NCBI GenBank assembly: GCA_902500775.1
Contig: CABVRZ010000034.1
Coordinates: 1 to 51,187, forward strand
Length of the DNA: 51,187 nt
Source: an uncultured Nitrospira sp.
GTDB taxonomy: Bacteria > Nitrospirota > Nitrospiria > Nitrospirales > Nitrospiraceae
Direction: 5' to 3'
In this document: in pieces, positions 4,972 to 45,951 of the stretch
Position numbering within the stretch: the stretch's first letter is position 1
Layout: the number at the start of each line of letters is the position of its first letter
Notes under the pieces: generated by a model
The model's input: only the letters and a program-made list of their open reading frames with translations
What the model was told of the DNA's origin: nothing
Database searches by the model: none
Position numbers and translations under genes: made by a program

Positions 4972-7443
<2,472 letters not shown>

Positions 7444-40622: not shown

Positions 40623-41557
40623 GATGATTTGTGGTCCTTTCCATGTGAGGGACGTGGTATTCGCGCTCGGGGATGGGCCCGATCGTAGACGGCGAGCAGT
40701 TGATCCATCGCCACATGTGTATATTTTTGGGTGGTACTCAGGGAGGCATGGCCGAGTAGCTCCTGGATCGATCGCAGATCCGCTCCTTCGTCGAGCAGAT
40801 GAGTCGCATACGAATGCCGGAGGGCATGAGGACTCACCCCTCCGCTCACCAGGCGACTGGAATATCGGGCGACCATCTTGGCAACACTTCTCGTCGTGAG
40901 CCGTCCACCCCTATGATTCAAGAACATTGGGGACGAAGGATGCTGGATGCGAGGAGTGGGCTTCAAGGACTTCCGATACTCACGGATGGCCTGCAACGCC
41001 ACATCTCCGATCGGGACGACTCGTTCCTTGCGGCCCTTTCCTCTCACACTCACGATGCCGTCCGCTTCGTCGAGGTCCTGGAGATTAATCCCGACGACTT
41101 CGCTCACTCGCGCGCCGGTCGAATACATCGTTTCCAGCAGGGCACGGTCACGAAGAGAGAGGGGTGATGGCCCGGAGGGAAACGTCATGAGGGCTGCCGC
41201 ATCATCCTTGGTGAGTACGCGCGGGAGGCGCTTGGGCAGTCTTGGGCTTCTCAGTGTTTCAGTCGGATTGGTTTTCACGAGCTCTTCACGGAGGAGGAAG
41301 CGGAAGAAACTGCGTAGGCTCGCCAGCTTTCGCGCGAGGGACGTGGCCTTCTCGCCTTGGCGATCCAACGAGTGGAGATGAGCACGAATATCGTCGCTCG
41401 TGATTCGGTCGATGCGAAGCGGCGAGGAGTCCCTCTTGGTTTTTCTGAGAAACGTGGCTAGCTGCTGAAGGTCGGAGCGATAATTGCGGATCGTCTCTGG
41501 GGACGCGTAGCGTTCGACCTGTAGATACATTACGAAAGCCTTGATTGCGTCTTCCAT
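40619..41557 (-). CDS. xerC: tyrosine recombinase XerC/XerD type
   Basis: This 312-residue tyrosine recombinase has a SAM-like N-terminal DNA-binding domain and a catalytic domain. The catalytic Arg lies in [11 protein letters not shown], the His-x-x-Arg in [11 protein letters not shown], the second His in [10 protein letters not shown] and the nucleophile Tyr in KYTHV. The trmFO-xerC-hslV-hslU order is the conserved housekeeping arrangement, so a chromosome-dimer resolution role is much more likely than a mobile element. It overlaps trmFO by 28 bp. Confidence 0.92.
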
Positions 41558-42846
41558 GCGTCAAAATCCTCAAGGGCTCGCTGACTCAGTGCACGGCGCT
41601 TCTTCTCCTTGTCCCTTGGTGAGTTCGCCAAGGGCGGGAACAGGCCGAAATTGGTGTTCATCGGTTGGAAATGGCGAGGATCCGATGAGGCGACGTGGGA
41701 AACCAGGCAGCCATGCGCCGTCGTGGGAGGAGGCGAGATCAGCGGATGTCCCGCGAGAGCGCGCGAGGCGTTGATCCCCGCGAGGCCACCCATGGCTGCC
41801 GACTCTGTATAGCCCTCCACGCCAACGAGCTGCCCGGCAAAGAAGAGGGAAGCTCGAGCCTTGAATTGCAGGGTATTGAGCAGCAGCTGAGGTGAATTGA
41901 TAAAGGTATTGCGATGCAGGCTGCCATAGCGAAGGAATTCGGCTTGCTCGAGGCCTGGAATCATACGAAAGACGCGCTTCTGCTCCGGGTACGTGAGTTT
42001 GGTTTGAAAGCCGACTAAGTTGTAACAGGTGCGATGGATATTTTCTGTCCGCAATTGCACGACCGCCGCCGGCTCCACGCCAGTTCGAGGATCTTTCAAG
42101 CCCACCGGTTTCATCGGACCGAACTGCATTGTCTGGCGGCCGCGCTCGGCTAGCACTTCAATCGGCACACAGGCCTCAAAATAGGGTGTCTTCTCAAACT
42201 CCTTCGGCTGGACCTTCTCTGCTGCCATCATGGCGTTGTAAAAAGCATTGTACTGGTCTGCCGTCATGGGGCAATTCAAATAATCATCTCCGCCTTTGTC
42301 ATAACGAGAGGCGCGAAAGACGATGTCCATGTTGATCGAATCGGCGTCGACGATCGGCGAGATGGCGTCGAAGAAATACAGGTGCTGTGATTTGGTGGCA
42401 GCGCGGATGGCTTGAGAGAGCTTATCTGATGTGAGTGGCCCAGTCGCGATGATGCAGAAACAGTCACTGGGTATCTCCGCGATCTCTTCGTGCAGGATGC
42501 GGATATTCGGATGGCCTTCCAGTGCGCGGGTGATGTGCTGTGAAAAGACATCACGATCCACGGCCAGCGCGGATCCTGCCGGCACTCTAGCCTGCTCCGC
42601 CGCGGCGATGATCAGTGAGTTGAGCTTCCGCATCTCTTCTTTGAGGATGCCGGGCGCATTGAGTGGATCAAGAGAACCGAGCGAATTCGAGCAGACAAGT
42701 TCGGCCAGTCCACCAGTTTTGTGCGCCTTCGTCATCTCTTTCGGACGCATCTCGTAGAGCGTAACCTTGGCGCCACGATTAGCCGCCTGCCAGGCCGCTT
42801 CCGACCCAGCCAGACCTCCGCCTACGATGACAATGTCGTCACGCAT
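41530..42846 (-). CDS. trmFO: folate-dependent tRNA (uracil-54) methyltransferase
   Basis: TrmFO makes 5-methyluridine at tRNA position 54 using methylene-tetrahydrofolate and FAD. ATG 42846 (MRDDIVIVGGG) gives 438 residues; an upstream ATG at 42885 is less likely. The FAD-binding glycine motif GGGLAGSEAAWQ is at the N terminus, followed by CSNSLGSLDPLNAPGILKEE, which is characteristic of the family. The last 28 bp overlap the start of xerC, so the two genes are coupled. Confidence 0.96.
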   Translation of the reverse strand: MRDDIVIVGGGLAGSEAAWQAANRGAKVTLYEMRPKEMTKAHKTGGLAELVCSNSLGSLDPLNAPGILKEEMRKLNSLIIAAAEQARVPAGSALAVDRDVFSQHITRALEGHPNIRILHEEIAEIPSDCFCIIATGPLTSDKLSQAIRAATKSQHLYFFDAISPIVDADSINMDIVFRASRYDKGGDDYLNCPMTADQYNAFYNAMMAAEKVQPKEFEKTPYFEACVPIEVLAERGRQTMQFGPMKPVGLKDPRTGVEPAAVVQLRTENIHRTCYNLVGFQTKLTYPEQKRVFRMIPGLEQAEFLRYGSLHRNTFINSPQLLLNTLQFKARASLFFAGQLVGVEGYTESAAMGGLAGINASRALAGHPLISPPPTTAHGCLVSHVASSDPRHFQPMNTNFGLFPPLANSPRDKEKKRRALSQRALEDFDAWKTQSRLS

Positions 42847-43034
42847 GTACTTGGAACTTCCAATAGTTGGAGAGTGAAGGCGCATTGTACGAATCGATTT
42901 TTTGCTCTGTCAAGGAAAAGGGCTGGTGAACTCCTGGGAGACCAGAGTTGTCCTGTTGGGGTCCTTGCCTTAATCTGGCGAACCAGTAGAATGCACCGCC
43001 ACGTAGCTGTCCGCGTAGTGGGTGTAGGTGTTGT

Positions 43035-45668
43035 ATGACTGCTAGTGACAAACCTCTTCAAGCCTTTGTCTCTTCCACGTTCATCGACCTGAAGGATCAT
43101 CGTGCTCATGTGATTCGTTCCCTACGGAATGCGGGGTTCTCTGTTGATCCGATGGAAAACTGGACGGCAGATAGCGATGAGCCCAAACAGTTTTCTCAGG
43201 ATCGCCTCAATGGCTGTGACCTCTGTGTGGTGCTGATCGCCTTCCGACGGGGATTCGTGCCGGATGGTGAAACCCTCAGCATCACGCAGATGGAGTACGC
43301 GGCGGCGCTCAATCGGGGCGTGGAGGTCTTGGTGTATCAGCTCGATGATAACGCCAAGTGGTGGGCGAAATATGATGAACGGGAGAAAGATCCTGCCGTG
43401 CAGGAATGGCGTGGTAGCCTTGGCAAGAAACACGGAGTGGAATTCTTTACCGATGATCCTCGCTCCATCGACATGACCGGTGCGTTGGGCCGATGGCTGG
43501 CAAAGAAAAGACCGAGTCGGTCTGAGTCGGAAAAATTTGTGCGGCTGGACTGGCCGGATGGTAAGTCGCCCTATCGGGGGTTGCAGTGGTTTACCCCGGA
43601 GTATGCGCCCTTGTTCTTCGGGCGTGATCGTGAAGTGGACGAGCTCGTCGGCAAGATGAGCGAGCCGGGCGGCCGTGTACTGCTCGTCATTGGGGCGTCG
43701 GGGTCAGGAAAATCATCCGTGGTGGAGGCGGGAGTCTGGAAGGCTCTTCTCAAAGAAGGGCGATTGCCTGGAAGTACTCGGTGGAAGTGGCAGCGGATTC
43801 AGCCCAGCGACGGCGACAGTCCCGGTGATGCGGTCGCTCGCGGACTGAAAGAAGCATTCCAATTGGCTGCTCGCCCAAAAGTGACGGACCGCGCCGCGCT
43901 TTGCGATCTGCTCTTACGACATCTTAACCAAGGTGAAGAATTGATCCTGTTCATCGATCAATTTGAGGAGTTGTTCACGAGCGGCTTCAACGAACCGGAC
44001 ATTCAGAGTTTTCTTGAGCAGCTGATCGGCACAGCACAGGACCAGACTAACCGGCTCAGAGTCGTGGTCACAATCAGGAGCGAATTCCTCGGCAAACTGG
44101 AAGCGTACAACTCCACGCTAAATCTCCTCAACAGCCCCTACCGCCATCATCTGGGGCCCGTATTGCCACGGATGCTGCAGGACATGATCGAGAAACCGGC
44201 TGAGGCCATCGGCTACACGTTTGAGCCTGGGCTCGTCGAGCGGATCTTGAATGACACTGGGCAAGAGCCGGGTGCCCTTCCGCTCCTCGCCTATGCTCTC
44301 AAGCAACTCTTTGAGACACGGAAGGGGCGCACGTTCACGATCGACGCCTATAACGCCATGGGCGAGGTGGTTGGCGCGATTGCGAAAAAAGCCGATGACG
44401 TTTTGTCAGGGTTATCCAAAGAGGTACGCGGCGCATTTGATGCCGTGTTTGCCGAACTCGTCCACGTTGAACGAGAGCGTCCCTCGACGCGAAGCCGTGC
44501 CCTCCTCTCTCATTTCAGTTCGGATCAAGCCGCCGTGCAGCTTATCGAGGCACTGGCAGGTCATGATTGCCGCATCCTGGTGACGAGCGGGAGTGGGCAG
44601 GAGACCATCGTCGAGGTGGCCCATGAAAAACTCTTCTCGGCCTGGCCCAAGCTCAAAGACTGGCTCGACAAGAGTGGGGAAAACTTACGGCTGATCGACT
44701 ATGCCGAGGAGGCGGCGCGGCAATGGGATGAGACCGGTGGTCATCTCGCTGAACTGTGGCGGAGGGAACGGGCTGACGCAGTGAAACGCGCGCTGACACG
44801 ATTCAACAGGACTTCATCACGCACACTGCTCACGCTGCTTGAGCCACAGACGATGCTCATCGAGAGACTCGATGACGCATCGCTGTCACACCAAGACCGT
44901 CTTTTGATTGGCCAGAAGTTGGCCGAATTTGGCGACACACGGCCTGGCGTCGGCGTGAAGGACGGTATCCCCGATATCGTGTGGATCGACATCCCCGGAG
45001 GTAGCATCACATTGGAGAAAGTCGATCATCTGTTTGAGGTGAAACCGTTCCGCATCGCCAAATATCCGATCACCAATGCGCAGTTCGAGGCGTTTCTCAT
45101 CGCAGAGGACGGCTATCGAAATGAGGAGTGGTGGAAAGACATCGAACAGAGTGAAGAGGCTGATCATCCGAGCTGGCAGGAACCCAATGCCCCTCGCGAA
45201 ACAGTCTCCTGGAACGAAGCCGTTGCCTTTTGTCGGTGGCTGAGCGCCAAAGCCCCCAATCCGGGAACCAGCATTCGTCTTCCCACCGAGTGGGAGTGGC
45301 AGTTGGCGGCGACAAGTGGATTCCCCCAACGTGAGTATCCTTGGCAAGGCGGATGGGATAGCTCTCGATCCAATAGCAGCGACAGTCGGCTCAATCGAAC
45401 AACTGCGGTCGGTATGTATCCACGGGGTGCCACTGAGCAGGGTGGGCTGGATATGGCGGGCAATGTGTGGGAATGGTGCCTAAACGAGTACGACAATCCT
45501 GAACAGCCGAAGGCGATGCAGGTCAACAAGAAGGGCGGCCGGCGCGTGCTCCGTGGTGGTTCCTGGTACAGCAGACCGGAGAACCTGCGTGTGTCGAACC
45601 GGGACGGGGCCAACACCGTCTCCCGGGACTTCAACCTGGGGTTCCGTCTCGTTCAGGACATTCCCTAA
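43035..45668 (+). CDS. DUF4062-STAND NTPase-FGE/C-type-lectin fusion with a DGR-like variable tail
   Basis: The 877-residue protein has three parts. DUF4062 (about 5-160, with AFVSSTFIDLKDHR and SITQMEYAAAL) is found in conflict and signalling proteins. The STAND ATPase (about 175-620) has the PYRGLQWFTPEYAPLFFGR entry, the P-loop GASGSGKS (220-227) and Walker B ILFIDQFEELF. The C terminus (about 645-877) is an FGE-sulfatase/C-type-lectin fold, with LPTEWEWQLAA, DMAGNVWEW and LRGGSWY. In its last part (residues 845-867, 45567-45635) most codons are NNC at sites where such proteins vary, the trace that adenine-specific DGR mutagenesis leaves. No reverse transcriptase lies in the window. A ribosome binding site (AGGTG) precedes ATG. 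Confidence 0.85.
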   Translation: MTASDKPLQAFVSSTFIDLKDHRAHVIRSLRNAGFSVDPMENWTADSDEPKQFSQDRLNGCDLCVVLIAFRRGFVPDGETLSITQMEYAAALNRGVEVLVYQLDDNAKWWAKYDEREKDPAVQEWRGSLGKKHGVEFFTDDPRSIDMTGALGRWLAKKRPSRSESEKFVRLDWPDGKSPYRGLQWFTPEYAPLFFGRDREVDELVGKMSEPGGRVLLVIGASGSGKSSVVEAGVWKALLKEGRLPGSTRWKWQRIQPSDGDSPGDAVARGLKEAFQLAARPKVTDRAALCDLLLRHLNQGEELILFIDQFEELFTSGFNEPDIQSFLEQLIGTAQDQTNRLRVVVTIRSEFLGKLEAYNSTLNLLNSPYRHHLGPVLPRMLQDMIEKPAEAIGYTFEPGLVERILNDTGQEPGALPLLAYALKQLFETRKGRTFTIDAYNAMGEVVGAIAKKADDVLSGLSKEVRGAFDAVFAELVHVERERPSTRSRALLSHFSSDQAAVQLIEALAGHDCRILVTSGSGQETIVEVAHEKLFSAWPKLKDWLDKSGENLRLIDYAEEAARQWDETGGHLAELWRRERADAVKRALTRFNRTSSRTLLTLLEPQTMLIERLDDASLSHQDRLLIGQKLAEFGDTRPGVGVKDGIPDIVWIDIPGGSITLEKVDHLFEVKPFRIAKYPITNAQFEAFLIAEDGYRNEEWWKDIEQSEEADHPSWQEPNAPRETVSWNEAVAFCRWLSAKAPNPGTSIRLPTEWEWQLAATSGFPQREYPWQGGWDSSRSNSSDSRLNRTTAVGMYPRGATEQGGLDMAGNVWEWCLNEYDNPEQPKAMQVNKKGGRRVLRGGSWYSRPENLRVSNRDGANTVSRDFNLGFRLVQDIP

Positions 45669-45876
45669 CCCTGTGCCCTTTGTCCTTTGACCCTTTGCCT
45701 CTGATTCCGTGGGGTGCATGTCGTCCTTCGAAAATCATGGAGCTGGGAGGCGCGCCTGCGACGGTTCCTAAGGTCGTGTGAGAAATTCGATGAGTTGGGT
45801 CGGAACATTCTCCGCGTTGACTGCTCCCAAGGTGCAGTGCTAGAGTTTGCCCTCGTTTCGGACCACTTCTTAAGTC
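45669..45876. other. noncoding stretch between the STAND gene and tRNA-Val
   Basis: About 200 bases with a pyrimidine-rich start that has three CCTTTG-type repeats (about 45677-45703), and nothing else that I recognise. A plus-strand frame from 45714 runs through the tRNA and is not a gene. Confidence 0.4.
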
Positions 45877-45951
45877 GGGCGATTAGCTCAGTGGTAGAGC
45901 GCTTCCTTCACACGGAAGAGGCCACAGGTTCGATACCTGTATCGCCCACCA
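45877..45951 (+). tRNA. tRNA-Val (CAC anticodon)
   Basis: A 75-base cloverleaf: acceptor GGGCGAT/ATCGCCC, D arm GCTCAGTGGTAGAGC, anticodon stem CTTCC/GGAAG with loop TTCACAC (anticodon CAC, reading GTG), and T arm ACAGG-TTCGATA-CCTGT. The ACCA end is encoded. Confidence 0.97.

Follow-up and report, generated by a model that had tools for sequence, protein, structure and literature searches.

The sensor gene and its locus

The window is the whole 51,187-nucleotide stretch that was analysed, contig C34 of a 4.53 Mb Nitrospira genome (G000; 79 contigs, 99.7% complete). The gene under study encodes a protein with the architecture of a STAND sensor: an N-terminal DUF4062 domain (a putative effector or adaptor), a central nSTAND1 NTPase and a C-terminal FGE-sulfatase domain of the C-type-lectin (CLec) type (Table 1). 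TvpA (2y3c, 1.8e-8), a variable protein (VP) of a diversity-generating retroelement (DGR), is among the matches of the FGE/CLec domain. Together with the PF03781 match, this identifies the product, at the level of sequence, as a C-type-lectin-fold target with a C-terminal variable region (VR). The earlier note had recognised the layout of a DGR target in this fusion of CLec/FGE to STAND and DUF4062, and both the Pfam domains and matching cassettes in relatives bear it out. PADLOC defence models gave only weak matches to the P-loop. Close homologues come from Nitrospira metagenome-assembled genomes, for example KAN-bin2 (73%). Orthologues (E ≤ 1e-80) are present in 22 other genomes of the 175 Nitrospira-family genomes searched, and the distribution of the gene (23/175) is patchy.

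The gene lies between a gene that, judging from its sequence, is trmFO-like and a tRNA-Val. The order trmFO, VP, tRNA-Val is common to the window's genome, G084 and G069. The flanking genes are 97% and 87% identical to those of G084, with the VP at 73%; for G069 the values are 91% and 78%, with the VP at 46%. As the identity of the VP is far below that of its flanks, the sensor has either outpaced its neighbours in evolution or been replaced.

Table 1. Features of the sensor locus in the window
Feature	Position	Strand	Basis or remark
trmFO-like gene, upstream locus border	41530..42885	-	
DGR variable protein (VP) gene, 877 aa: DUF4062, nSTAND1, FGE-sulfatase (C-type-lectin type)	43035..45668	+	
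DUF4062 domain (aa 9-91)	43059..43307	+	Pfam PF13271, 9.7e-14
nSTAND1 NTPase (aa 179-568)	43569..44738	+	Pfam PF20703, 2.8e-97
FGE-sulfatase/CLec domain (aa 653-873)	44991..45653	+	Pfam PF03781, 1e-44
VR with homology to relatives' template repeats; its variable core is 45567-45638	45543..45656 (start approximate)	+	
CTTTG box CCCTGTGCCCTTTGTCCTTTGACCCTTTG, candidate homing target element	45669..45697	+	Conserved across family VRs
avd remnant, first 9 codons (start now GCG), then TGA	45752..45778	+	20/24 nt match, by eye
tRNA-Val, downstream locus border, common to G084 and G069	45877..45951	+	

The variable region

The earlier note had pointed to a run of C-ending codons in the RGGSW...GFRL tail, and the codons are as it described. 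After TGG (45564-45566) the sequence reads TAC AGC AGA ... AAC ... GAC GGG GCC AAC ACC GTC TCC CGG GAC TTC AAC, followed by CTG GGG TTC CGT, and 13 of the 25 codons of the core end in C. In a codon alignment of the orthologues, the first two bases of this block vary and the third is C at the same columns. The note had placed the segment at 45567-45668; it does contain a genuine VR, but the homology to templates starts upstream, at about 45543, and ends at 45656.

An all-adenine template consensus was inferred from the variation among orthologues and then searched in the 175 genomes. It matched real template repeats (TRs) with 90-96% identity (for example G119:C47, G018:C487, G033:C5, G111:C100 and G064:C140); TRs are present in G119, G018, G033, G111, G064, G037, G065 and others. 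Each matched TR sits just 3′ of an RVT_1 gene, the DGR reverse transcriptase (RT), and the cassette also carries a bAvd gene, in the order VP, avd (119 aa), RT (360 aa, IGNLTSQ motif), TR. The Avd proteins of the relatives score above the cut-off for PF22296 and for NCBIfam NF033474 (DivGenRetAVD). Compared with their own TRs, the cassette VRs of G064, G111 and G119 are changed at 20/30, 19/30 and 10/29 adenines, respectively, and at none of 45-46 non-adenine bases. Between templates, on average 1.6 of 29 adenines and 5.8 of 46 other bases are changed; the better conservation of the adenines is expected if these are the functional part.

The closest TR to the window VR is that of G111:C47, from which it differs at 14 of 30 adenines and at 3 of 66 other bases (Fisher p=2.2e-6, the best of 12 templates; p≤3e-4 with 11 of the 12, the exception being the damaged template of G131). 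Thus, judged against the TRs of relatives, the VR differs from TR almost only at TR adenines, as adenine mutagenesis of template codons would have it, and the templates do read AGG where the note had derived GGG from AGG. The two or three non-adenine mismatches to the best foreign template indicate that the G111:C47 TR is not the exact template used. The second VR of the genome, on contig C11, is changed at up to 23 of 31 adenines versus 7 of 65 other bases. In a set of 34 family VRs, changes affect 53% of VRs at columns where the template has adenine, versus 7.8% at the remaining columns (Mann-Whitney p=4e-12). Among codons that encode different amino acids, 71% keep the same third base in the VR, versus 31% in the 80 residues upstream and 34% in this genome's non-DGR FGE paralogues. 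These two controls rule out codon bias as the cause, against which the earlier note had cautioned. A binding loop that evolves fast by ordinary means might, in a GC-rich genome, leave such a codon trace with no DGR at all, given that C-ending codons are common (27% upstream) and that the RGGSW...GFR motif belongs to all FGE domains. We regard this as extremely improbable: the variation obeys the adenines of independently found TRs that adjoin DGR RTs, and third bases are kept in the VR but neither upstream nor in the paralogues. Judged by these comparisons, the tail of the gene is a genuine DGR variable region.

Some templates are damaged. Half of the G131 template (L128, 5950-6069) is overwritten by VR-like sequence with a VR-type tail at its end, and the G045 template (L129, about 6285-6360) has an internal deletion; templates thus decay too. 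A second DGR type, with GFRCAQD templates and an IGNQTSQ RT, occurs in the Nitrospira family (L130, L131, L133 and L134). It is about 50% identical to the first, and G111 has both. A literature search of limited reach found no paper detailing the DGRs of Nitrospira.

The missing cassette and its remnants

An RVT_1 profile search of the window's genome found nothing; the same search was positive in 57 of the 175 genomes. The RT protein of the relatives had no match in the genome, no template repeat was found when it was queried with the VR and the inferred TR, and avd is represented by truncated pieces only. PF22296 gave a sub-threshold match only, the model being one that misses short stubs. 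The note had proposed that TR and RT be sought genome-wide; neither was found in the window's genome. Relatives have both, with TRs 90-96% identical to the inferred one. Of its suggestion that the retroelement lies elsewhere or was lost, loss holds (no RVT_1, no TR, only truncated avd) and a location elsewhere in the genome does not. The note had named the lack of TR and RT in a complete genome among the grounds for giving up the DGR; formally this is the case here, yet it is overridden by the templates of relatives and the scars at the locus.

Three sites in the genome retain such scars. In the window, the CTTTG box, a start-less 9-codon avd remnant and the tRNA-Val come after the VR, in that order. 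This stub is a short by-eye match to the intact avd start of G113 at the same spacing and was not recovered by tblastn. C11 has a paralogue of the VP, matched by the window protein in two different frames; behind it come 32 avd codons, a gene that is presumably IS630-like and a PIN-type toxin-antitoxin pair. Flanks of the C11 type (queA-mreB), syntenic in G109:C54, still hold template sequence, fused to a VP tail. At the end of C12, avd codons about 21-43 are followed by BrnTA-like genes, and the flank behind these is the flank found behind RT and TR in G119:C47 and G073:C155. The RT/TR position is taken by other sequence at all three sites. The absence of RVT_1, RT and template from the genome, taken with these three sites, points to a DGR that was once present and then lost.

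In G109:C54 (L137, 1710-3932) the tail of the STAND VP consists of template sequence plus the downstream flank of the template. The arrangement looks as if recombination between VR and TR had deleted avd and RT, or it may be a chimeric assembly. An FGE gene on C68/C41 was considered as partner of the C12 avd stub and rejected, as C68 and C41 overlap to give one ordinary FGE gene. Contigs often end inside VRs or avd (G119:C47:1 (L121), the end of G119:C64, G064:C167:4 and the end of G000:C12), possibly from VRs being heterogeneous or repeated in the sequenced populations. VPs or avd stubs are repeatedly followed directly by toxin-antitoxin genes (L140, L142, L144, L150, L155, L157 and L172); the labels BrnTA-, PIN-, CopG- and MazF-like were assigned by eye.

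A rival possibility is continued diversification of the VR in trans, by an RT and TR that are carried on a mobile element, hidden in an assembly gap or present in only some of the population. Neither the VR nor the CTTTG box is damaged, contig C12 stops inside the avd stub of a genome in 79 contigs, which makes an unassembled RT/TR conceivable, and trans action and mixed populations have been reported for Thiohalocapsa PB-PSB1 (PMC10907252). We nevertheless give this little credence: the 99.7% complete genome is without RVT_1, TR or complete avd, other sequence occupies the RT/TR position at each of the three known sites, and a scan of viral contigs for a phage-borne RT gave one distant RT (41%).

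It is also unlikely, on balance, that the gene came by lateral transfer from a relative with a DGR, its diversification complete before arrival and none added in this lineage. The VR is very near a foreign template (3/66 non-adenine mismatches) and the gene is patchily distributed (23/175 genomes), but it has the same position between trmFO and tRNA-Val in G084 and G069, and the window's genome holds three DGR relics. Such a transfer is a variant of the reading in which the gene is the frozen product of a DGR, and is compatible with it.

The CTTTG box and the avd junctions

Directly after the VP stop codon lies a 29-nt pyrimidine stretch of tandem CTTTG units. Its own genome holds two copies only (≤2 mismatches, 4.53 Mb), each 3′ of a VR, the other at G000:C11:47223-47242; a reversed control pattern of the 20-nt box core had no match in this genome. 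Across the 175 genomes there are 66 box sites at ≤1 mismatch, the limit used, since at two mismatches chance matches are common by the reversed-pattern control. Of these sites, 47 lie behind a VR match to the inferred template. On inspection all but two of the other 19 are at VP genes or avd stubs, giving 64/66 family-wide, with the G108:C5 site counted from its adjoining avd stub alone. In 36 sites chosen for having the box, identity is 76% at positions 1-29, 40% just beyond them and at most 29% further on; for the full set of 56 sites, the figures are 58%, 33% and at most 27%. Template repeats showed no match to the box. A hairpin or cruciform downstream of the VR is common in DGRs, though not universal. 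At 45640-45720 folding was no better than for shuffled sequences, and the same holds for the intact cassette of G111. The box is present (≤1 mismatch) in 38 genomes; this RT type is found in 12 of them and absent from 26, a count inflated by incomplete assemblies. As a feature of these VRs, the box is new. It is probably a homing target signal. As a hairpin-free candidate it is open to experiment and could widen the rules of DGR targeting.

Behind many remote VPs lies a truncated avd, of which mostly 28-79 codons from the 5′ end are left, and several of these break off at codon 40. Truncation loci include L142, L143, L145, L150, L173, L177 and L189, with a cluster at codon 40 (RRFTLGER.E); at L150 and L173 similar sequence continues past the avd junction. 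No full avd with a partial RT was found behind the remote VPs examined, except at a contig end. Such clustering of breakpoints would not be expected from random deletion of the 1.5-kb avd-RT-TR unit. Either a dispersing unit would end at this breakpoint, or the avd segment would be retained for a reason.

Proposed history

We propose, with a probability of about 0.88, that a DGR with avd, RT and TR, of a type that other Nitrospira relatives still carry, once diversified this STAND sensor, and that the engine was later lost and the variant frozen. The protein would be a STAND-type conflict sensor whose C-terminal FGE/C-type-lectin face binds the ligand and was the part diversified. Reverse transcription of the template RNA would have introduced errors specifically at adenines. 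The resulting cDNA would then have taken the place of the VR by homing, with the target set by the VR's 3′ end and probably also by the CTTTG box. Later, avd, RT and TR would have been deleted at all detectable cassette sites in this lineage, leaving a fixed, formerly hypermutated binding face. By analogy with its family and with related systems (PMC10907252, PMC7159879), the face may sense an invader antigen and signal through nSTAND1 and DUF4062.

More tentatively, and at somewhat less than even odds, the homing target in this DGR lineage may be defined not by a hairpin but by the tandem-CTTTG box, perhaps together with the beginning of avd. Sensors with that tail would then disperse or survive as self-contained targets that lose and possibly regain an engine, and frozen and active forms would coexist in the genus.

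The codon trace alone had rightly predicted a lost DGR, and the template inferred from variation proved nearly letter-perfect in relatives. The locus documents a DGR-diversified immune-type sensor in Nitrospira that has lost its engine and at which the broken ends can still be seen. It is well suited to asking whether hypermutated sensors become fixed after a useful variant arises.

Comparison with known systems

Targets of the nSTAND1-FGE kind, trans targets and degenerate loci are already known from PB-PSB1, and a relic VP from Anabaena. In Thiohalocapsa PB-PSB1 and clade 5D DGRs, nSTAND1 targets have their VR in an FGE-type CLec domain at the C-terminus (Dore et al. 2024, PMC10907252), as here. 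The degenerate loci, insertion sequence damage and remote (trans) targets of PB-PSB1 (PMC10907252) likewise have their counterparts in our data. The present gene differs in belonging to the Nitrospira family, in its N-terminal DUF4062 in place of EAD8 and in having no functional cassette left in its genome.

Diversifying NTP-dependent conflict systems (eLife 2020, PMC7159879) join NTPase conflict proteins to FGE-like domains that vary by DGR. The window gene shares this pairing; those systems are VMAP-ternary systems with vWA fusions, and no such partners were identified at the window gene.

The BPP-1 DGR requires an inverted repeat (hairpin/cruciform) just 3′ of the VR (PLoS Genet 2011, PMC3240598). 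Here too the target is probably set by a short element that follows the VR outside the TR/VR homology, but this element is a tandem CTTTG box without a predicted hairpin.

A VP with a remnant VR and no RT nearby has parallels among the remote or relic VPs of cyanobacteria, such as Anabaena all3226 (BMC Genomics 2020, PMC7517822). Those relics were read as removal of the engine once an optimal variant had been selected (PMC7517822). Unlike them, the window's genome marks the loss with avd relics at three sites, and related species still have the matching cassettes.
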